NCBI GenBank assembly: GCA_950295325.1
Contig: OX485803.1
Coordinates: 56,311,554 to 56,375,553, forward strand
Length of the DNA stretch: 64,000 nucleotides
Origin: Polytrichum commune
Lineage: Eukaryota; Streptophyta; Polytrichopsida; Polytrichales; Polytrichaceae
Direction: 5' to 3'
A program made the position numbers and the translations under genes. Below, piece by piece: positions 9,200-35,005 of this stretch (position 1 is the first letter of the stretch; the number at the start of each line of letters is the position of its first letter). The notes beneath the pieces are model-generated. The model saw only the letters and a list, made by a program, of their open reading frames with translations. It did not search any database and was not told the DNA's origin.

Positions 9200-9518
9200 T
9201 AGAGTTATCCTTTAATTCAAAGGAGTTTGGTAGGGAGTTTCTTACAAAACCATCCATGTTTGGCAAGCTTGAGGTGCATGCGTCGGAGGTCGTGTGAAGG
9301 TTTGAACCAATAACATTCTATATCGGTTCATTGAGGGTCAAACTCATTTTAGCAACGCATGCGGTGCTAAAATGAGTTTGACCCTCAATGAACCGATATA
9401 GATGTTATTGGTTCAAACCTCCACACGGCCTCCGACACATGCACCTCAAGCTTGCCAAACATGGAAGGTTTTGTAAGAAACTCCCTACCAAACTCATTTG
9501 AATTAAAGGATAACTCTA
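9200..9518. repeat. Long near-perfect inverted repeat (hairpin), arms about 155 bp
   Basis: The left arm 9200-9354 and right arm 9365-9518 are reverse complements with only about six to eight mismatches and a one-base indel. They are separated by a 10-base loop reading ACGCATGCGG. Transcription in either direction would give a roughly 155-bp double-stranded RNA. No flanking TSD was identified. A diverged, partly rearranged relative may lie at about 61985-62140. This could be a foldback transposon or a recent inverted duplication feeding a small-RNA locus; sequence alone does not decide. Confidence 0.9.
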
Positions 9519-21800: not shown

Positions 21801-22348
21801 AAAAATTGCAGTGACTTGGACAATATAAGTAATGGAAGGGCACAAACAAATGGGCCATTTTTGAAATTTAAGTAATTATAGGGAGGCTTTAATTCAACCC
21901 TTGAAGGTAAATAGCCCCAAAACAAAAAACCCCCATCCGCACGTGGTGCACAAAAATGCCTTAGAGTGATCTACCCGTGATAACACCCCTTCTTGAACTC
22001 ACGTTAGTTTGTACATGGTATGAAGAGTCCACCTCCTGGGAGCAATTGCCAGCAGTAGCATGTGACAACAATGGTGAGAGTGATGGAAGTAAAGGTAGAT
22101 GTACAAAAGGACCAAGGGCTAAATTAAAGAAACCGGCACGCGTGCATTTTTGTTGTTGGAAAGAGCGTGGTGAGCAGATTGGAGAGCCAATCACCTTTAC
22201 CGATTAATTTCAAACCAAAACCTTGCAAACTTCCTTGTAATGGTCTTACGATGTCCTTTTCTTTGTGACTAATTCTTGTTGTTGTGTGTGACTGCTCATC
22301 TTGAGAAATGGAGGGTCAAGGTTAAATTGGTCGCTGTAAACGATGCCC

Positions 22349-22413
22349 TGGGAGTGCTATCTTATGAGTGGTGAGCGATGAGCGGTAACTTATGAGCAGT
22401 GAGGAAGATGAAA
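22349..22413 (+). repeat. Left terminal inverted repeat and subterminal motifs
   Basis: TGGGAGTGCTATCTTATGAG is followed by GTGAGCGATGAGC and TTATGAGCAGTGAGG. The TGAGCRR heptamers are inverted relatives of the GCTCAYY repeats at the right end and are candidates for transposase binding sites. Confidence 0.85.
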
Positions 22414-25400
22414 ATTTTGGTAATAGGACCACCAATATCCTATAACCGTGGAATTGTGGCCTTAAAAATGATGATTTTAGGGTTTAGTAATAAGAGGGTT
22501 GAGAAGGATAAACAACATGAAGTCCAAAAATTTATTCATCAGTAGTAGCACTAGACATGAAACTATCTTTTGCCTCGTCATCTATATATATTCGAGCACC
22601 TTTGCATTGCGAATTGATTTTGGAACTATAGCAAGATTCTTCATTTGGATCCGAATCTTCGAGATTCAACATTGCAATTGCAACATTCTCGGCATATGAT
22701 GGGAGACGCGGGCTACGGCTTGGACTTCGTAGGAATTGTCTATATGCCCAAAACGGGAGACATGTCCTCTTTCCAATCGTATTCCTGAAATCAAATCGAT
22801 GAAACATGTAAATAATGTGAAGAAATAAAAATGAACCAATGAATTGAATGAAACGAATGAATTGAATAAAAATTTATTGTATTAAAACTTACTCACACTC
22901 AAATTCAAGCATCTCCTCATCCGAGAGGTCATCATCTTCTTTTGTGAGATCTTGTATATTCTCCTTAGATGACCCCTCTTTCAAAACGTTTTCCAAAAGC
23001 GGTTTCAATATGTGCTCAAATATGTCATTATCACCCTCAAATGCAAGAAGATGTCTGCCACATGCGCGTGTTGCTAGGATAGAAGCTCCAGTGGAACATG
23101 TCAAATCAACAACGCGTCCATTCGACGGTGTAAACAATTCAATAAGATCTTGAAAAAAACGCGGCGATTTTTTATATGGCCCCCTCCAAGGTCTTCCCGA
23201 TTTTTGAAGAAGCATGTTTTTTTCATCCACAAAATTGAAAAGCAAGTTTTTGCTTTTCAATCCAGTGCCAAAAAAAGTGGAGTTTGGTTGTCTCGTGAAT
23301 TTTGTGGTAGTAAAATTCCATACCAAGACATGAGCCATAAATGCCGGAGTCTACAAAAAAATGTAAATTATGTTAAAACTATATAGAATGCAAATAACAC
23401 CAAAATAATTAAATAAAAACAATTGTGATGTGTTATACTTACGGTGTAGGTTGGAGACTCCGGATCCTTGAACACCATGTACGAATTGAGGTAAATAAAA
23501 GTCCTAAGAACTTTCATGTTGCCGTTGTGTAAGGTTGAATTCAAAACCTTCTTGGTTTGCATATCGATAGCAGAAAATACTATGAGGACGCCATCATCAG
23601 ACAAGATGGACTTGCACAAGGACATTGTTGCAACCATCCAGTTCTTGTCATATTTATTCCAAAGAGGAATTTCAGCAGGTCTATTGGAGAGGTTGAAGTC
23701 AAGACCGTCGGGAAATTGGAGAAAAACAAGGTCAACGGCAAAGGGAGTCGGACTTCCCATGACATGAAATTCGCGATTGTCATTGAACTGAAATACCACA
23801 ACATATCACAATATAAGACACAAAATAAAACCCAAATGAAAGTAAGAACATTAGAGAAAATACCAAAACAATAATTATACTTACGTTTTCAATAAATTCC
23901 CGCCATTGGATCCACTTAGGAGGGCCTACATCCACCCCTTCAGACTTGTTCTTGACAGCAGTAGATCAAGCAAATGAGAGCGTGAGAAAGTTCTTCAGTA
24001 TGAATAACTCTTTTCTTAAAATATCCGTTGGCGCACGATGAATAGCGTCATAGGTACTAGAGTAATGAAATTCCAATACATCGCATCTAGACTTTGAACT
24101 TTCGCCTCCAAGTGGATTCTTATCCAAATCATTGGAAAGAACAAGCAATTCTTCATGTTGTGAAATCTCCGATTGATCTTGTATTTTGGTTTCAGGAACA
24201 TGTTTCCTCTTACGATGTTTTGTCTCTTTTGGTTCTGGCTCTCTAAGTTTAAGCTGCACAATTTGTGCTTGCAAAATTGCAGTATCACGAGGATCCACAT
24301 TTTTAGCATCATTTATCTGACAGATTGTTTTCTCACTTCACGGACATACATCCTTAGGACAATCAAAATACCAACCACAATCCTCATAGTGTGGGAGCGA
24401 CGAATCCAAACAAATCTCAGTAGTGAACATGCATGAATCTCCTGCACCAGTGTCATGCCAATTTGGGAAAAAACGAGGTTCCCCTATAACGCATTTATGT
24501 GGAATCAAAACATATCGAAAATACCTACACACAAAAATATTGTAAGTCAAATATTTCATGACAATTTGACAAATGGAATCAAAAAATCAAAAAATAATAA
24601 GATTAGGTTGTACCTGTATAATACACGTTTCATAGCAAGATCAATATTAGGTTGCTCATCCCAACCGTTGTGTTTTTTAACTTTTCCGCTTTGGAATTCA
24701 CGATAGAATATTGAATTGAAAGCCGCAAACTTCCAGGTTTGGATATACTCGGAGAGAGTAGATACATCTGCAGGCAACTGAAGAGGAGATGAAAGAATAC
24801 TTTGAAGCTCTTCGATAGCCTTTTTTTCCAACTGTACCCAATATGTAGATTTTGATAACCAATCATCAAGTGCAGAATCAGAGAGGGGCGATTTCGGAAA
24901 ATGCAATGTATCTTTGTCAAATCTATTGCCATTTCAAAGCTTGAGCCATCCAACTTTGACTTCTGCATCCACATTACTCACAGCAACACGATGAAGTTTC
25001 TCTTATAGCATTTCAGGCACCGAAAATGAACCCCAATGGCGCTTAACTTCTTCAAGGAAAGCAGAGATAAGGTTGATGTCGGCAATCGCTAGTTGTTTCA
25101 TAAAACTAGAAGATAACATTGCACGTTTTTTGTTGACAGCTGCAAACATTGCTTTTGAAACTCCGTCTGATGTCCGTTCAAGAGGATGAGTTTCATTATA
25201 CTGGTTGAGAGCAATATCGTTAGCCTCAGCAAGTTCTTGCTGAAAAATCAAACAAAAGTCAATATTTATAAGTACATATAGATGTAATGTAAAATGAAGA
25301 TGAATAAACATAAGGCACATATTAGCAATGGTAGAAGAACTTACACTGTACATGTAATCCAAAAAAATTGGTCGTCTCAAAGAATACCAAGTTTCGACGG

Positions 25401-26573
25401 ACTTCTCCTCACATCGTTTATAACTCTTTGGATCCAGTTGTTTTCTGAAGGAAGTCAAAGGCATGGTGCCAATACTTTGCATCCGATATAAAGTATGCAC
25501 CAAATTGGTGGATACGTGAGAATTATCGGTTGACATGAAAAAAACATTAAATTGATTAGATTTATGATGATATAATTTGGAAAAAAAAATATAAACTAGA
25601 AATAAGTGTAAAAAATATGTAAGAACATTACTTGTTGATGTCATGTATAGCAGTCAACAAACTTGAAATGTCGTCAGGCTCGGACGCCAAAATGATAAAA
25701 TTCACAAAGACATGACGTTCATAATCTTCGGTATATACGCGGTCAATATAATTTCTCCAAGCAAAAAATCTGTGATTTCCATCCCATATAAAAAACATCT
25801 TGTTCTTGTATGACGTCAATGACAAATCTGTATCCAATTGAGATTCAAACAGGGCATTGGCTTGAGCCCAATTTGGGCTCCAAGATGCGCGAACCTCATC
25901 ATCCACGAATTGAAAGTTTCCCTTAGAATCGGTGGCCGATATATAAAACACACGGTCACCATCACGATAACCATTGAAAAAATCAGCCTCCAATTTAGTA
26001 ATGTCACCCTTCAAAGCAGGACGCACAATCGGCATATGAACCATGCGACATAAGGGTACACGCAAGCGAGCATTAGGTCCAGCACGGATTGAGGAAATTG
26101 TGGAAGTGGAATTGACCTTTCGTTTGTTCGTAAGCTCCCACACTTTCTCTTGATAAGTTTTATTGTCACTATCATTCTCTTCATCCGAGTCAAAATCATC
26201 GAGGGATTCATTTATTTTTTTCTTTTTCTTATTATGAAGATTCAACGATATGTCCTGATGATGATGAACTTGTTGAGATGGACGATCTTAAATTGAATGC
26301 ATTATGGAATCATCATCAGTAGAAATAGGAGTCGTTCTCTCCAAATCCATTGATTGGTCCTAAAACAAATGAAATAAGTTTCATAAATATTTCAAAACCA
26401 GTAGCAACACATTAGCAATAACATTCCAAAAACAACAGCAATAGCAACAACAATAGCAACAGAATACCACGAACACAGGGAAAAATGACAAAAATTATTC
26501 TAGACAATGCCATTTGCACCTTTAAATATTGTACGATTAGGGTGGCCGTTCAACCCAAAACTACAAGGGCAGA

Positions 26574-26595
26574 CCCTGTGCGTTAACGCACAGGG
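26574..26595. repeat. Solitary palindrome of the 64-bp-array type
   Basis: A perfect palindrome with half-site CCCTGTGCGTT and its reverse complement, identical to the core of the array at 27960-28525 and lying just before the 32-bp array. Confidence 0.9.
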
Positions 26596-26631
26596 TCTGT
26601 GTGTCCAACTACAGGTCTACCAAAGTTGGGT

Positions 26632-27142
26632 GCGACGTTTGGTTCGAACGACCCAAACTATCCACGCGGTTTCGATCGAGCGACCTAAACCGCCTACAAC
26701 CAGTTTGGGTCGACCGACCCGAACTGTGAGCATGGTTTGGGTCGAACGACCCAAACCATGCTTACAGTTCGGGTCGGTCGACCCAAACCATGCTCACAGT
26801 TTGGGTCGGTCTACCCAAACTAGGCAAACAGTTTGGGTCGTTCGACCCAAACTATGAAGACAGTTTGGGTCGTTCGACCCAAACCATGCTCACAGTTTGG
26901 ATCGGTCGACCCAAACCATGCTCACAGTTTGGCTCGGTCGACCCAAACTAGGCAAACAGTTTGGGTCGTTCAACCCAAACCATGCTCACAGTTCGGGTCG
27001 GTCGACCCAAACCATGCTCAGAGTTTGGGCGGTCGACCTAAACTAGGCACACAGTTTGGGTCGTTCGACCCAAACTATGCAGACAGTTTGGGTTGGTCGA
27101 CCCAAACTATGCTCACAGTTTAGATCGACCGACCCAAACTGT
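26632..27142. repeat. Array of about 16 palindromic units, 32-bp period
   Basis: Each unit contains half-site GTTTGGGTCG, a 2-base centre, then CGACCCAAAC, followed by a 10-base linker such as TATGCTCACA. The period is 32 bp. The 2-base centre varies (TT, GT, AC, AA) while the halves are conserved, and linkers fall into a few types (CATGCTCACA, TAGGCAAACA, TATGCAGACA). Each unit keeps two or three CpG sites. Two further units occur at about 31798-31855 inside the transposase gene. The constant halves with a free centre indicate binding sites for a dimeric protein. Confidence 0.9.
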
Positions 27143-27375
27143 CCGCAATTTACGCCTGATTATGCGCAATTACCCAGTCATCACGAAAGTGCAAACAAAT
27201 TTTGTATTGCACCTGTAGATGAGAGAGCTTGCAGCGACGAGCTCAGGTCCGACAGATGAGAGAAAAAAGACTGAATGCTTTGGGGGTGTGGCAATTCATA
27301 CTACTCGTCCCTGCTGCCATATTTAGTGTGGCTCTTCGTGGCCCCGCATAGCCGCTAGAAAATTGCCAGCGTAGA

Positions 27376-27502
27376 CCCTGTGCGTTAACGCACAGGGTCT
27401 ACTTGCCTAACTTTGGGAAGCCTCTAGCTAGGCAAGTAGACCCTGTGCGTTAACGCATACACCCTGTGCGTTAGTGCATAGACCTTGTGCATTAACGCAC
27501 AT
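27376..27502. repeat. Four clustered palindromes of the CCCTGTGCG type, three decayed
   Basis: One perfect copy at 27376-27397 is followed, from about 27440, by three degraded copies (CCCTGTGCGTTAACGCATA, CCCTGTGCGTTAGTGCATA, CTTGTGCATTAACGCACA) without the 64-bp linker. Confidence 0.85.
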
Positions 27503-27959
27503 AGCCGAGACATGAATTTGAAAAAAAAAAAAAAAAATTAATTTTTTTTAGAAGTCTGAAATTGGTAGATTTGCCAAAACTTGTAAAATCTGAAAAAAAT
27601 GCTAATGGGGTTACAAAAAAAAAACAATATGCTATATTATCTAAATATCCGTAGCTACAAATTCTTCTCATATTTTGTTTTGGTTTGAAATCATTTTCTT
27701 TTCTAATTCTTCTATCTATTTCCTTCTTTTGGGCCACCTCGTAAATTTTGGGTTTCGGGGCAAAAAAAAAAAATGCTATTTTGTGTCATTTTCTAGCTCC
27801 TATAACGTATTGCATGAATACTTGAATAGACATATTTCTCATTTCTTGCATTCTAACCCCGTTTTCAATAGGTTTTTTTGCTCCTACACTCTGCACATTG
27901 ATTTAAATTCATACAATAGATATTTGTTTTACTTTTAGGCTCTCCTAGTCGTTTTACCT

Positions 27960-28525
27960 CCCAACTTTGGCCTTCCTAAGTTGCGCTTACAAATCCTGTG
28001 CGTTAACGCACATGGTTTATCCTCCCAACTTTGGTCTTCCTAAGTTGCTCTTACAAACTCTGTGCGTTATTGCACAGGGTTTCTCCTCCCAACTTTTTGC
28101 CTCCTAAGTTGCTCTTACAAACCCTGTGCGTTATCGCACAGGGTTTCTCCTCCCAATTGTTTGCCTCCTAAGTTGCTCTTACAAACCCTGTGCGTTATCG
28201 CACAGGGTTTTTCCTCCCAATTGTTTGCCTCCTAAGTTGCTCTTACAAACCCAGTGCGTTAACGCACAGGGTTTCTCCTCCCAACTTTTTGCCTCCTAAG
28301 TTGATCTTACAAACCCAGTGCGTTAACGCACAGGATTTCTCCTCCCAACTTTTTGCCTCCTAAGTTGCTCTTACAAACCCTGTGCGGTAACGCACAGGGT
28401 TTTTCCTCTCAATTTTTTGCCTCCTATGTTGCTCTTATAAACCCTATGCGTTAACGGACAACATTTGTAAGAGCAACTTAGGAGGCAAAAAGTTGGGAGG
28501 AGAAACCGTGTGCGTTCTCGTCTTG
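27960..28525. repeat. Array of eight palindromic units, 64-bp period, plus one inverted unit
   Basis: Each unit is a palindrome (half-site CCCTGTGCG, 4-base centre, CGCACAGGG) joined by a 42-base linker containing TTTGCCTCCTAAGTTGCTCT. Repeat starts at about 28148, 28212 and 28276 give a 64-bp period. Centres are TTAA, TTAT or GTAA. After the last forward unit (about 28441) the linker appears in the opposite orientation at 28461-28500. CpGs in the half-sites are mostly intact. Confidence 0.9.
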
Positions 28526-28987
28526 ACTTCTAGCCTTCCTAAATTTCTGTTATATACAATGTGCATTAACGTATAGGGTTTCTCCTCTCCAATTTATAAC
28601 CTCTATAAATTGCTACTACATGACATGTGAATGAACGTACAAGGTTCTCTGTCCTAACTTACAACTTATGAACTATCAAATTATGTGAACGTTGAACGGA
28701 CTTACCTTTTTGTTTGTCGTCTTCTTTGAACCCGTCTTCAATTCGGACTCTGATATACGATCGTCTACATCTTTTTTGCTCTTTGCACCTTCATCATCCT
28801 CCACCGCATGAAAATCCAGTGTCTTCACAGTTTCTTCTACCGTACTCAACAAGTTTCTTTTCCCTTCCTTATTTGCATTCTTCTTTCCGACATTCAATCT
28901 GAACCTCTTTTTCTCGGAAGTGAAATACAAAGTTTTCCTACGTCTTCTCTTCGGCCTCACGGGTGTTCTCTCTACATTGTCCACCAT

Positions 28988-29509
28988 CGTTGGTGTCTAT
29001 GATATGTTTTCTATCAGGTACTATCATTTATTCTTTCAATGTATCTATCTCACAAAATCCGGCGTATATTACGATCACATGTTGTAATTGGCGTTCAATG
29101 AACGAGATATTTCGACGCGTTTGTCATTATGTGTTTATTTTTTGTATATCCGCCAAAATTTTCTGACACCTACTTTGTTCTATTCATAATGATCAATAAT
29201 TTATTTTTCCAACCAATTTTAATTCTTTCTACATCTACGTCAGTCCACACATATATATTTTAAATTTCTACCAATACTTTTAGTATTTGACGCCATTTTG
29301 TGTATATCTTGCTCGTAAATATTCTCTGATTATTATTGTGCTTTGTCCACTTCTGTATTATTAGATGTTATGTATCACATGCTTTCATCTCCATCCATTA
29401 TTGTATCACACGTTTTCATTTCCATTTATTTCCTTACACAATTCTATACAAAAGCAACATTCACCCCATATTTTTGTAATGTGTTGTTCATATGTTCTTT
29501 TGATTTTCT
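28988..29509. promoter_or_regulatory. Divergent promoter region of the two transposon genes
   Basis: This approximately 520-bp AT-rich interval separates the first codon of the minus-strand gene (28987) from the first codon of the plus-strand transposase (29510). Both transcription starts should lie in it or be shared by it. I could not identify TATA elements with confidence, and no palindrome of either array type is present here. Confidence 0.45.
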
Positions 29510-32500
29510 ATGGCTACCATTAGAGCTCATGGATCTTTTGTTCCCTTCATCTTGCCACTCCAAGATGATGGTCATGTGAGTGTTTCAGAGGATTTACTTA
29601 GTTTGAGATTCAACCTCCAGATAGGAACTATGTATTTAGAGCATGAGATGTACTCTGCAGATGGAGAGGTGTATGAAACGATTTTGGTTCCAAAAAATAG
29701 AACTGATGTTGGTTTTATGTGGATCTTAGGACCTGGTTCATTTAGGGTGATAGGACTTTCTGAGTCTCATATGCAAGCTTCAACTGTCATTTTGACAAAT
29801 GAATCCGGTACATCCACAGTTCAAATTCCCTCTATCGCACCTGTTAAGGTGGAACCCCCTTGATGATAGTGTGTTTGTGCTATCAGATTCAGAAGATGAC
29901 ATTTGTGCATTTGTTGATCTTTAAAACACATCGCCATTTCCATTTAGAAGTGTTCATTCTACTCCTTTCCAACTTCCTATACATGTAGCCAAATCCCCTT
30001 GCGGTCTTATGTAAAAGAAGGTGGTTCCCCAAATCTCACCTTCTCAACGTCCTCCACTACACCCTTCACCTTCATTTACAGGGTTGACTATGGTTGATGC
30101 CTTGAAACTGACAAAGTCAAGAAAAAGATCAAAGTCCGATCTTGCATTCATTGATTTTGACAGTATAGATGTTCGTGAAGTCAAGTACTTACCATGTTCT
30201 TTTAATGGTGATGTTTTGTTTCTCTTGCCTCCTGTGGCACTCAAAGCTTCAAGTACGTATGGTCGTTCAATGGACAGCATGGACAAGATGTGCGACGGTC
30301 ACCCTTGGTGCACCACCAAAACCACGAATATCCAAAATGACTTTGGACTGTCCTTCCGGCGCTCTACTTGTGCTGGTCATCTCCAATGTCATAATGACTA
30401 CTGTGATTACATGAATCGCAATGGGGGCCTCCGGAACAACACTGAATGGGCCGGTTCAACTTCTATCCCATTTGTTGTGGGTGTTGTTCCCCCTACTAAG
30501 TCCACTGTCGAGTGTAAGGTATGTCGTTCCACACCTGTGTGCATTGCTTTGTGTAATGCTCGAATCATATACATCCATTCCACATCCGTTGGAATGTCCA
30601 GGGCTTGCATTCATCTTGGTGTACATGATCACCCTGTCGCCATGGCACATGCCGTGAATCATTGGACATGGCATACCAATGCGTTGCAAATGAAGTATTG
30701 AAAACACCCACAACAAAAAATTCAGCCATAGTTATGGCGGCGAGCAAACAATTCTTGGCCGATTACCTTCTCAAATCTCCCGCAAATGTCGAAGGCCATC
30801 ACTTGGTTGGTTCATCCCTAGAGGTCGTCATGGACAAATTTAACACTCTTGCGTCTCCAAATTGTCGTAACTTTGTATCTGGATCAAAGCGTTTTTTGCG
30901 TAGTGAAATGGGAACTATAGATAGTATTATGGCGCTCAAAGACCACTCTGCTTTCAAATTCGTCCATGGTAGTCGGTTCCCAGGGCAGTTAAAGGACAAA
31001 GTGTTTGTTTTCAAGATGTCTGTAGACCTTCCAGGTAGTGGTGTGGAGCTTGTGAAGAGGATGCAAGTCGGTGGGGATATGGAGAATTCATGGATTATGT
31101 TTGACCATGTCAAACGTTTGAAGGATTGGACGACCATGGCTTGCCATGTGTACGACAGTCGATACTGTAAAGTGTTGACTATTGCGTGTTGTGACATGCA
31201 ATCTGAAGATGGCGTAGCACAAATTCTCTTTTGGGAAAATTTGAATGCTGTTATGGCAGAAAATGATGTACCAAACGTAAACTTCAAAGGGTTATAGCTG
31301 ATAGTGCTCAAGCTAATTGGAATGTGGTGAGGGCGATTTACGGGGATGGTGATCCAAGTCTACCCATGGTTGCACGTGAGCGTACATGTCTTTTCCATTG
31401 GTCCGCAAGCTTGAATAAGGTGACCCAAAAGTATATCAAACCATCCTTGCAATTTCAACACAAACAAATATGCAAGGATTACAAAGACGCGAAAACAATG
31501 GACGACGCTGAGACCAAGTACCATGTGATTCGTTCTTGGTGGTTGTCATCTAGAGCTACCTCCGAAGAAGGCATCCTTGGCCTTTCAGAGTAGTTGGGAT
31601 TTTGGCACTTTCGTTACAGATAATGGGGTGGCCATATCCTACTTGTAAGTACATATCAAACTTCATTACTCAATGTAATATATCTTATGTTTTTCTTATC
31701 TTTGTCTTTCTGTGTTCTTCATAGGATATGACAATAGAAGAGCGTGCGGGAATGCCAACATGCAACCTTGCAGAGACTGTATACAACAAACAACAAGCAG
31801 TTTGGGTCGTTCGACCCAAACGTGGCAACCATTTTGGGTCGAATGACCCAAACCTAGATATATAATCTATCTTATGTTTGTCTTATCCTTGTATTTGTAT
31901 GTTGTTCATAGGATATGACAATAGAAGAGCGTGCCGAAATGCCAACATGCAACTTTGCAGAGACTGTACACAACAAATGGCTCCAACAGTCCGGCAACAA
32001 GATGACTTGTTTATATGAAGCTACAGTGGACGACATGATCCGTGCCTTCATGCAAATTGCAAATTACCGGACATGGTTGAAAGGGGGGTATGATGGTAAA
32101 GGTCCTGATTCGGCCTCCTTGAAACTCAAAGCAGCTGCCAGGTGTGGAGATCCAAAAATGTTGGCTGATGCCATGAAGTCTTACCTAGGGGCAGAAGACG
32201 TCAACACTAGAGATTGTGCATTGGAAGGGTCAGAACTCTTTGGTTCCACCAAACGCAAACTCAACCTACCACCGGGTGCTGATTGTGACTCTCATCGACC
32301 CGACAAAGTGAACTATTCCATTCCTCGTCCCAACACTCGAGGAACTCGTCAACGCATAGAGGAATCGTTGAGTTCTGCAATTCATGATGTGGCTCATACT
32401 ACATCCGTGTTAGAGACTGATTGTCTTGCTTCTAAGTGGCACATTGCAAGATTGCCACCCAACTCAGCCAAACGTTGTTGGGCACTGTAGGCCATTACAG

Positions 32501-33280
32501 GGACTATGTGCAATGCGAAAGTCGGGACTGGGAAACATGGCACACCTACTCCAACATACAAAGGGCTCAGGAAGGAATTTTGCTCTCCCAACAATGTGGA
32601 GTATGAATTTTGGTTTTGTTTTGACGACATCAAACGTTGTGTGAGTGGCAGTAAGAAGAAATATATGTTGGATTGGCCTATAGTACCCAACACGTGGCCA
32701 GTGAAGATAGGTACCAATCTATTGAGAGAGGAGGTTTTGGCACTTGAAGATGTTGGATTTCAACTACAGCAGAGGGAGGCATTGTCTCCTCGTCATAGGC
32801 TTTCAACAATTGCAACTCTTCCCATCCCTCGCTCACATTTTTCTATACCACCAAACCCGGACGCCCACCCTACATTCAGATTTGGGAAGACAGTGCATCG
32901 TAATCCAACAGCACCTCTAGCGGATCACAAAAACAAATGGGAGAGCGCCGGACTCATGGAAGGTTACTATGTGGTTGGGGTCACTGCCATTCCATATCCG
33001 GGCTTTGGAGTGATAATCAACATTGTCTCCAAGCAAGATATCACCTACCATGTCACAATTGGCGATATCCCGCATTGCACATGTCTAGATTTCACGAAAA
33101 TGTCCTCTCATACATTGGGAAAAAAAAAGAAAATAGGTGTATTGTAAACATCTTTATTATGTGTTTAGATTTTTGTGCAAGGTGGATTACGAGAGTGATA
33201 AGTTCATTCATGCACCTACATATACCTATAATGAGGTCATGCGACTACTTGAACTTGCTGGTATTGTAGAATGTGAGTAG
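29510..33280 (+). pseudogene. MULE-like transposase, decayed
   Basis: From ATG 29510 (MATIRAHGSFVPF) the N-terminus runs to VKVEPP. After a frameshift near 29855 it continues as LDDSVFVLSDSEDDI. A Cys/His region at about 30290-30635 contains VECKVCRSTPVC and ends GVHDHPVA, matching the CxxC...HxH form of WRKY/GCM-type fingers. A frameshift near 30638 leads to NSAIVMAASKQFLADYLL, and the DDE-like core follows: CHVYDSRYCKVLTIACCDMQ, then (frameshift near 31288) IADSAQANWNVVRAIYG and ERTCLFHW at 31378-31401, the CxxH signature of MULE transposases. An intron with donor 31645 ends at an AG that is itself duplicated (31724 and 31911). The C-terminus carries a SWIM finger, CTC at 33076-33084 and CKH at 33143-33151, ending at TAG 33278-33280. 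Stops include 29922, 30012, 31591, 32488 and 33134. It would cut and join the element ends in the nucleus. Confidence 0.85.
31675..31977 (+). repeat. Tandem duplication of intron end plus exon start, with array palindromes at the junction
   Basis: About 115 bp covering the intron 3' end (TTCATAG) and the exon start GATATGACAATAGAAGAGCG occurs at 31675-31790 and again at 31860-31977, with about a dozen differences. Between the copies lie two units of the 32-bp array type (GTTTGGGTCG-TT-CGACCCAAAC and a decayed one). Only the downstream copy continues into NKWLQQSGNKMTCLYEA, so the upstream exon start is a dead end or an alternative acceptor. Confidence 0.85.
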
Positions 33281-33980
33281 TATTGCAAGTGCTCTATTAA
33301 GCAACATATATTTGAATGTCAATAAATGACATGTTTTGGTTTGGATTATTATAATAAAAATTAGCAGTGGATTGAAAGTATTTCAAATGATTCAGTAACT
33401 TCATTTTTATTTTGACTGCGACCCAACCATGTGTGATTTGATTGATTCACACGGATAAATAATAACACGTTTTCTGAAAATAAAAAATAATTAAGAAGAT
33501 TCTACGCACATCCGCGTAGTAACGTCTTCTTGGTATCCGCCTATAGATTAATCCTGCTTTATCACTAGCTCAATTTGGGATAGCACCAGTCAATGTAACC
33601 AACCGGATTCGAACCCGGGTTGATCCAGACCTAATACCAGTCTCTTACACAACTCGCATCCACAGGCGGATGTCTCAAAACCTAATAGCTACCTACATAT
33701 TCATTATTTCTAATATCTAATTTTCTTTCTTTTGTAGATTCTGGGCCTTTATTCAACCCGTGAGCAGTTTGAGTGGCTCACAATTATGGCACCGACATAT
33801 ATGTATAACGAGGTTATGCACTTACTTGAATTTGCTGGTGTTGTAGAATGTGAGTAGTTGTACAAGTGCTAGTTGTAGCTACATGTATAAGGATGTCAAT
33901 AAATGACAAGTATTGGTTTGAATTATTATAATAAAAATCAGCAATGGATTGAAAGTGTTCTAAATGATCCATGGAGATAG
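33210..33980 (+). repeat. Duplicated 3' end of the transposase gene flanking a SINE-like insert
   Basis: The last codons and 3' flank (CACCTACATATACCTATAATGAGG ... GGTATTGTAGAATGTGAGTAG ... AATAAATGACA ... TTATTATAATAAAAAT) at 33210-33400 recur at 33785-33980 with about 15% differences. The second copy is preceded by a pyrimidine-rich stretch ending TTTCTTTTGTAG, which resembles an intron acceptor, so it may have been an alternative last exon. Confidence 0.75.
33470..33672 (-). mobile_element. tRNA-derived SINE-like insertion
   Basis: On the minus strand, starting near 33672, the order is GATGCGAGTTGTGTAAGAGA (A-box-like), an anticodon-arm-like stretch, then CCCGGGTTCGAATCCGG (a good B box with a T-arm stem) about 45 bases later. 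Unrelated sequence follows, ending in a T-rich tail at about 33480-33500. The tRNA-like part lacks acceptor-stem pairing, so it is not a tRNA gene. A 3' T-rich end would fit Au-type plant SINEs, but I cannot confirm the family. No TSD was found. Confidence 0.55.
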
Positions 33981-34109
33981 GGCCCTTTCACTTGTGCTTC
34001 ATTTAAAATATTGGCAATTTACAATTGAAAATATGCAATTAATTTGTCAAAAATTTGGTTGTAAACCCTAAACCCGTGTGTCTTTACTAAATTTGGATTC
34101 ATTGCTCAT

Positions 34110-34187
34110 ATGTTACTGCTCATTGCTCATGTGTTACTGCTCACCGCTCACCGCTCACTGCTCATCGCTCATAAGATAGCTTCCCTC
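34110..34187 (-). repeat. Right terminal inverted repeat and subterminal motifs
   Basis: GCTCA-type heptamers (CTGCTCA, CCGCTCA, TTGCTCA) recur about eight times from 34117 to 34170, then CATAAGATAGCTTCCCTC ends the element at 34187. The outermost part is the inverted match of the left end. Confidence 0.85.
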
Positions 34188-35005
34188 AACGATGCCCCAA
34201 CCAAGGGGGGCAACCCGATGACAGAGGTTGGGGCGAACCAACCCGTACACTGGTTCCTTGGAGCATCCAACAAAGAACGAGTGAGTGTTTGGGTTAGTTC
34301 GCCCAAATCCAAGACAAAGAGGTTGGCAAGTTGTTCAATGCTTCCGTGGTGTTGTTTGGGTCCACCGGGTGCTCCCTTGATGAGAGTCCATGATGACCTC
34401 GAATGCGTTTTTTGGCAATGAATTAAGATCTTGTTTCATGTGTCTCAAAAGGGAAAGGAATGAGGGTGGTTTGTCATGGACAAAATTAGGTGCGGACAGG
34501 GAGACCATCCCTATCCGTATATCAATTGTCACCCTAAATAACACGATGGCGTGACTGGCCTCCATCATTCAGCTGCCAGGGATTTTGCCTCAGTCTATGT
34601 TTCTCTCTCTTGTCACCCAGAATTACTACGATTGTCACCACAGGAGCTTCGAAATCATGAGATTTGTCGACCTTTGGCTATGAAACGGAGCTGCTGCTGC
34701 TGGCTTGATAACGTCAAGTTGGAGGATTGTGCATGAAACCGGTGGAGAGGGAAGACAACATTTGAATCCCTTGGTGGGCCATTACCATGTCTGCAAAAGC
34801 TTTTGCAGTGGAAGGTGCGTTCAAGCTGTTGTCATGACACGACGCTCCTCAAGCAGGAACACAAAAGAACTCCTCACGTCACCGTGTTAAAGAGCCGACG
34901 TGCATGAGTGTGCATTTGGCCATCTAATAGTTATGGGCTTTGAATTACCTGCCTTAGGCAAGAACAGTTTTCAGATTGGATTGAGAGGTCATCCTTGAAG
35001 TATTA
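34188..35005. other. Flanking DNA right of the MULE
   Basis: Begins with the TSD copy. No recognised gene; the 103-codon frame crossing the TIR boundary at 34110-34421 cannot be real because it spans the insertion point. The stretch 34200-34330 is less AT-rich and has GGTTGGGGCGAACC and GGGTTAGTTCGCCC phrases loosely like the array half-sites, probably by chance. Confidence 0.45.

Follow-up and report, generated by a model that had tools for sequence, protein, structure and literature searches.

What is the second gene of a large Mutator-like element (MULE) for? The question is raised by a 64,000-nucleotide stretch of Polytrichum commune DNA (assembly GCA_950295325.1, contig OX485803.1, positions 56,311,554 to 56,375,553 of the forward strand; hereafter the window), in which an initial annotation had described a structurally complete, two-gene MULE-like transposon and singled out its gene content beyond the transposase as unusual. 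That judgement proved sound: the second gene, here called the helper, combines a ParB-like motif with a DNA-methyltransferase-like domain. We are highly confident that the MULE family behind this element is real, large and abundant, and that its helper is conserved and derived from a methyltransferase. Our proposal for the helper's role is tentative, at somewhat less than an even chance: it may bind palindromes and counter silencing, convergently with VANC of the Arabidopsis VANDAL MULEs.

The element, its target-site duplications (TSDs) and its terminal inverted repeats (TIRs) are placed as follows.

22349..34187, no strand: whole element, 11,839 bp (from the TSDs and the ends common to other copies)
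22339..22348, plus strand: left TSD, AACGATGCCC (exact-repeat count in the window)
34188..34197, plus strand: right TSD, AACGATGCCC (exact-repeat count in the window)
22349..22403, plus strand: left end, a TIR of ~20 bp followed by ATGAGCGG-type subterminal repeats (comparison of copies)
34099..34187, minus strand: right end, a TIR followed by 14- and 21-bp subterminal repeats (comparison of copies)

Within the window, AACGATGCCC occurs only at these two places (0.02 expected), in line with the exact 10-bp duplication first reported, and its length falls within the 8-11 bp given for MULE TSDs in PMC6446971. The TIRs share GCTATCTTATGAG (22356-22368, plus strand; 34168-34180, minus strand), as had also been noted, with the subterminal repeats lying inward of them. 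Other copies begin with GGGGAGTGCTATC (base 22349 is T in the window and G elsewhere), and the element ends with GATAGCTTCCCTC at 34187; because these start and end sequences are shown by other copies, the coordinates originally assigned to the element can be called exact.

Copies were sought throughout the 407.8-Mb assembly (64 contigs, of which we met C1-C7, 42-78 Mb each; the window is C1:56311554-56375553). The left end gave 447 first-look candidates; the best 40 were scored, and 39 besides the window showed 98-99% identity. Ten of these 39, compared over longer stretches, were mostly 93-97% identical to the window copy outside the palindrome arrays described below. An exact, copy-specific 10-bp TSD flanked six of the seven elements in which both ends were seen, the window included; both ends of the seventh, c7_120, were read and no TSD was found. 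Three copies (c3_149, c6_348 and c6_79), whose match was broken up within the fetched stretch, were left out of this set, and the right end of c4_585 was looked for in its fetched stretch and not found. Copy c2_555 lacks the segment corresponding to 27389-29899.

Both of the divergent genes claimed for the element are present inside it, the first being the transposase.

29510..33274, plus strand: transposase gene, two exons (29510 to ~31645; 31912-33274), broken here (reading frames, comparison of copies)

The predicted fold of the catalytic region points to a Mutator/IS256-type transposase: the best match of the structure model is ISCth4, an IS256/Mutator-type transposase with which this region appears to share its fold. 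ISCth4 is bacterial and is not known to have WRKY/GCM1-like or SWIM parts. Because of the TSD length, the ends, the predicted transposase fold and a SWIM-like motif, we retain the assignment to the MULEs. The CLFHW box cited in the initial annotation occurs in the transposase frames, as does a SWIM-like C-x-C...C-x-H motif whose halves are split by a frame change. Structural completeness holds for the ends of the element and fails for its genes, both of which are broken in the window copy: transposase exon 1 has three frame changes and four stops, and exon 2 one frame change and two stops. Copies with uninterrupted frames are present elsewhere in the genome, and an uninterrupted transposase exon 1 adjoins the helper copy L035 (C1:63982709).

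The helper gene and its motifs lie on the opposite strand.

22532..28987, minus strand: helper gene, 8 exons, 5 premature stops here (reading frames; exon lengths and splice sites recurring in copies)
28987-28706, 26359-25632, 25534-25345 and 25239-24614, minus strand: helper exons 1-4 (recurring exon lengths and splice sites)
24524-23885, 23787-23443, 23350-22899 and 22784-22532, minus strand: helper exons 5-8 (recurring exon lengths and splice sites)
25769..25783, minus strand: helper exon 2, DGNHR motif resembling that of ParB (by motif; profile searches gave no match)
23707..23718, minus strand: position of methyltransferase motif IV, with QFPD instead of DPPY (alignment with copies and M.PhiCh1-I)
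23081..23107, minus strand: methyltransferase motif I, the S-adenosylmethionine-binding region, DLTCSTGAS (alignment with M.PhiCh1-I)

The second gene belongs to the element. Helper exon 2 gave 152 matches in the genome (best 150 of 1,239 candidates scored). Sixty-two transposases were scored; in the group of 54 nearest to that of the window, 34 had one of the listed helper exons no more than 9 kb upstream, on the other strand. Among the matches listed, no helper exon lay upstream of the eight transposases of the other group, or on the far side of any of the 62. When two of the loci were opened, L030/L033 from these eight and L032/L034 from the 20 without a link, we found a helper gene in each, at ~23-41% identity and adjoining transposases 51% and 71% identical to that of the window. 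A fourth helper family, at 42-43% identity, came from three stretches examined on the helper side (L047-L049). The four diverged families each carry reiterated CpG-containing palindromes nearby. A search of metagenomic proteins with helper exon 2 gave 50 relatives, 41-92% identical; the whole helper protein found none there, probably because exons are predicted separately in metagenomes. Searches of viral contigs gave no relatives and those of genome contigs a single one, L001. Among the titles and abstracts of the open-access papers searched, none described a MULE whose helper is of ParB or methyltransferase type.

The eight exons join in frame to give 1171 codons. Four of the five premature stops in the window copy fit a C-to-T or G-to-A change when set against the residues of other copies, and the exon-3 acceptor reads AT, compared with AG in 21 of the 22 other copies in which the exon aligned and AA in c7_296. 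A comparison of 16 copies, the window included, covered exons 2-8; these exons were uninterrupted in four (L035, L040, L041 and L042), with canonical splice sites throughout in L035 and L040. Selection on the helper in the window's family is purifying, the ratio of nonsynonymous to synonymous divergence (dN/dS) being 0.12 between L035 and L040 over 1,077 codons and 0.12-0.42 over nine pairs. In the same L035-L040 comparison dS is 0.45 in exons 2-3 and declines by way of 0.25 and 0.17 until it reaches 0.05 in exons 6-8, a gradient that suggests recombination or conversion towards the element's left end.

The C-terminal domain resembles beta-class DNA methyltransferases. It matched PF01555 (N6_N4_Mtase) in two of three families, at 2.2e-4 for L035 and 8.2e-4 for the L032/L034 helper (F32), both under Pfam's curated cut-off, and the L030/L033 helper (F30) gave no match to this profile. 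The helper also matched phrog_67 at 6.6e-8, F32 additionally matching phrog_3008 at 2.5e-6, and tblastn yielded weak matches to phage DNA methylases (best E 2e-3) among 69 records that also include phage DNA helicases. Three families retain the region of motif I, of which only the GAS end was seen in F30. For motif IV, expected as (D/N/S)PP(Y/F/W), these families have QFPD, DLPE and NVPE: VDLVLTDPPYG of M.PhiCh1-I aligns to VDLVFLQFPDG for the window's family and to FDLLIVDLPEG for F32, and the F30 region is VDLVIFNVPED. Motif IV is thus lost in every family in which it was read, three in all, and the domain has probably lost catalytic activity. Upstream, exon 2 carries a ParB-like (W/C)(D/E)GNH(R/C) motif in four families. 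M.PhiCh1-I of the Natrialba phage PhiCh1, a ParB-methyltransferase fusion in which ParB_N (5e-5, just under the cut-off) precedes N6_N4_Mtase, would be comparable in the order of its parts. Its motif I region aligns with that of the helper at an hhalign probability of 90%, whereas it has the DPPY that the helper lost, and it measures 419 residues against ~1,170.

The second recurrent feature of the family is a set of palindrome arrays.

26637..27147, no strand: palindrome A array (GTTTGGGTCGNNCGACCCAAAC), 32-bp period, helper intron 1 (repeat and palindrome scan)
27957..28460, no strand: palindrome B array (CCTGTGCGTTAACGCACAGG), 64-bp period, helper intron 1 (repeat and palindrome scan)
26570-26599 and 27371-27402, no strand: further palindrome B copies, helper intron 1 (palindrome scan)
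31800..31852, no strand: two palindrome A units, transposase intron (palindrome scan)

All matches in the window (15 to A, 10 to B) lie within the element. Palindrome A occupies both introns in the seven other copies whose transposase intron was found and in L031, and palindrome B occurs once in c2_555. Other helper families repeat different palindromes, which lie between the genes or within an intron of the helper. L030 has six units in forms of TTGTCTCGGATCCGAGACAA; L032 has four in forms of GTGGCATCTCGGATCCGAGATGCCAC and three in forms of GGTATTGGCGGNNCCGCCAATACC; GGTTTCGGGACCGAAACC and TTGAAGCCTCGGCTTCAA are repeated in L047-L049. The palindromes of the helper families contain CpG and have arms 0-2 bp apart. 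A core, CTCGGATCCGAG, is common to the palindromes of L030 and L032 and is also present once in L004. Exact matches to palindrome A number 9,231 across the genome; among the first 100 places listed, some clusters adjoin helper exons and others show the spacings of an unrelated transposon, N. The idea that palindrome A is private to the MULE was accordingly rejected.

Transposon N is 17.6 kb long and nested in c6_348 (L026+L027+L053, G000:C6 ~34888155-34905760), with 28-bp TIRs starting AACACTATATTCG and a TAAT duplication. It carries 30 palindrome A units, a multi-exon gene on the minus strand that encodes an NLI-type phosphatase domain (PF03031, 1.6e-8) and a plus-strand open reading frame with QLDNCAKDNKSRYVFAYW...VGHTHDDID, which we take to be DUF7869-like. 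Palindrome A therefore leaves two readings: transposon N takes advantage of the helper, or the reader of A is a host factor.

In the proposed mechanism, the ancestor of the helper would be a ParB-methyltransferase fusion of prokaryotic or viral origin, and the helper would no longer methylate. As a dimer, it would bind the element's CpG-containing palindromes; by occupying the arrays of its own intron and, for the window's family, those of the transposase intron as well, it might keep the genes of the element unsilenced, paralleling through an unrelated protein what VANC does for VANDAL MULEs. The window copy, a decayed member, is rich in C-to-T damage of the kind that methylation and silencing of a transposon would be expected to leave. 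Several observations weigh against this proposal. Palindrome A is also found in transposon N, where no helper relative was found, and L030 and L032 have the same palindrome core despite strongly differing proteins. The ParB-like exon found no match in Pfam, PDB or hhalign searches, the profile comparison with M.PhiCh1-I included, and its structure model (mean predicted local distance difference test score 46) was too poor for a fold search; the PF01555 scores stay below Pfam's cut-off. In mostly decayed copies, the CpG of palindrome A is not spared C-to-T change (20/492, against 31/738 at non-CpG positions), although changes at palindrome B CpG are fewer (15/324 against 55/648). We consider doubtful the fuller scenario in which a ParB-methyltransferase became a dead, palindrome-reading anti-silencer with family-specific arrays, a second VANC-type invention whose palindrome transposon N displays in order to exploit it.

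Each alternative accounts for part of these data. The helper may be required for transposition itself, as maize mudrB is 'apparently required for integration' according to PMC6446971, with a host protein reading the palindromes, for example as intronic enhancers or insulators. A host reader is conceivable because the palindrome is shared with an unrelated transposon that has no detected helper relative, yet a single host factor does not predict that every helper family examined is accompanied by palindromes of its own, and we regard this account as rather unlikely. That the helper is instead an active methyltransferase for N6-adenine or N4-cytosine, with motif IV in an unusual form, and marks the element's own DNA would suit the retained motif I region, the purifying selection and the matches to DNA methylases of phages. 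Catalysis, however, requires the aromatic residue of DPPY, and its loss in all three families read makes this improbable. About as improbable, in our estimate, is that the palindromes are inert intronic minisatellite growth or RNA hairpins unconnected to the helper. Their unit numbers differ widely among copies and palindrome A is very abundant, as inert growth would have it, but different families repeat different palindromes of like design between or within their genes, the 0-2 bp arm spacing would suit a DNA-binding dimer more than an RNA hairpin, and the reversed control pattern of palindrome A gave 0 matches.

Palindrome-bound anti-silencing by the helper would have a precedent, since sequence-specific anti-silencing encoded by transposons has already been described for VANDAL-type MULEs. 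The VANC protein is, judging from its structure, presumably unrelated to the helper, and we know of no methyltransferase domain in mudrB, unlike the helper. VANDAL MULEs resemble the element in encoding a fast-evolving second protein, VANC, and in carrying short tandem motifs in introns and non-coding parts that differ by family (PMC5735166, PMC10398659); for VANC21 these are tandem repeats in the VANC21 and VANB21 introns and upstream of VANA21 (PMC5735166). They differ in that VANC motifs are not described as palindromic in the relevant parts of PMC5735166 and PMC10398659, in that anti-silencing is demonstrated there and is only proposed here, and in lacking TIRs, according to the account of VANDALs in PMC6446971, whereas this element has them. 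In the latter respect it is closer to maize MuDR (mudrA/mudrB), a two-gene autonomous MULE with TIRs (PMC6446971). If the proposal is correct, an unrelated protein would do the job of VANC, implying that counter-silencers arise repeatedly in the arms race over DNA methylation, and a new class of DNA readers would derive from methyltransferases. With diverged helpers, diverged palindromes and uninterrupted copies in one genome, their co-evolution is directly testable.

The window copy itself is a decayed member of its family. Compared with the majority base over 7,537 sites, it differs by C>T/G>A at 100, by T>C/A>G at 9 and by a transversion at 21, and the C>T/G>A excess recurs in the other ten copies, most weakly in c7_120 (87, 60 and 84, in the same order) and c6_348 (8, 4 and 5). 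Such an excess would fit an element under silencing whose methylated cytosines have been deaminated.

Other observations concern the transposase, a diverged element and the flanks. The transposase 3' region is duplicated in the window (33212-33394 and 33789-33971, 83% identical); between the two segments lies an insert at ~33481-33679 that recurs in L032 (78%) and, by its GGTTCGAATCC-like box, presumably resembles a short interspersed element derived from transfer RNA. L001 (CADCWO010000080.1) holds a eukaryotic-type transposase of this kind on a contig filed as a cyanobacterial metagenome-assembled genome, probably through contamination. Between the two genes of the diverged element in L030 (4342-4703), a 129-bp unit, which we take to resemble the start of 28S ribosomal RNA, is repeated 2.8 times. 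Outside the element, the window contains a near-perfect 86-bp palindrome at 9317-9402, with 43-bp arms and no spacer.
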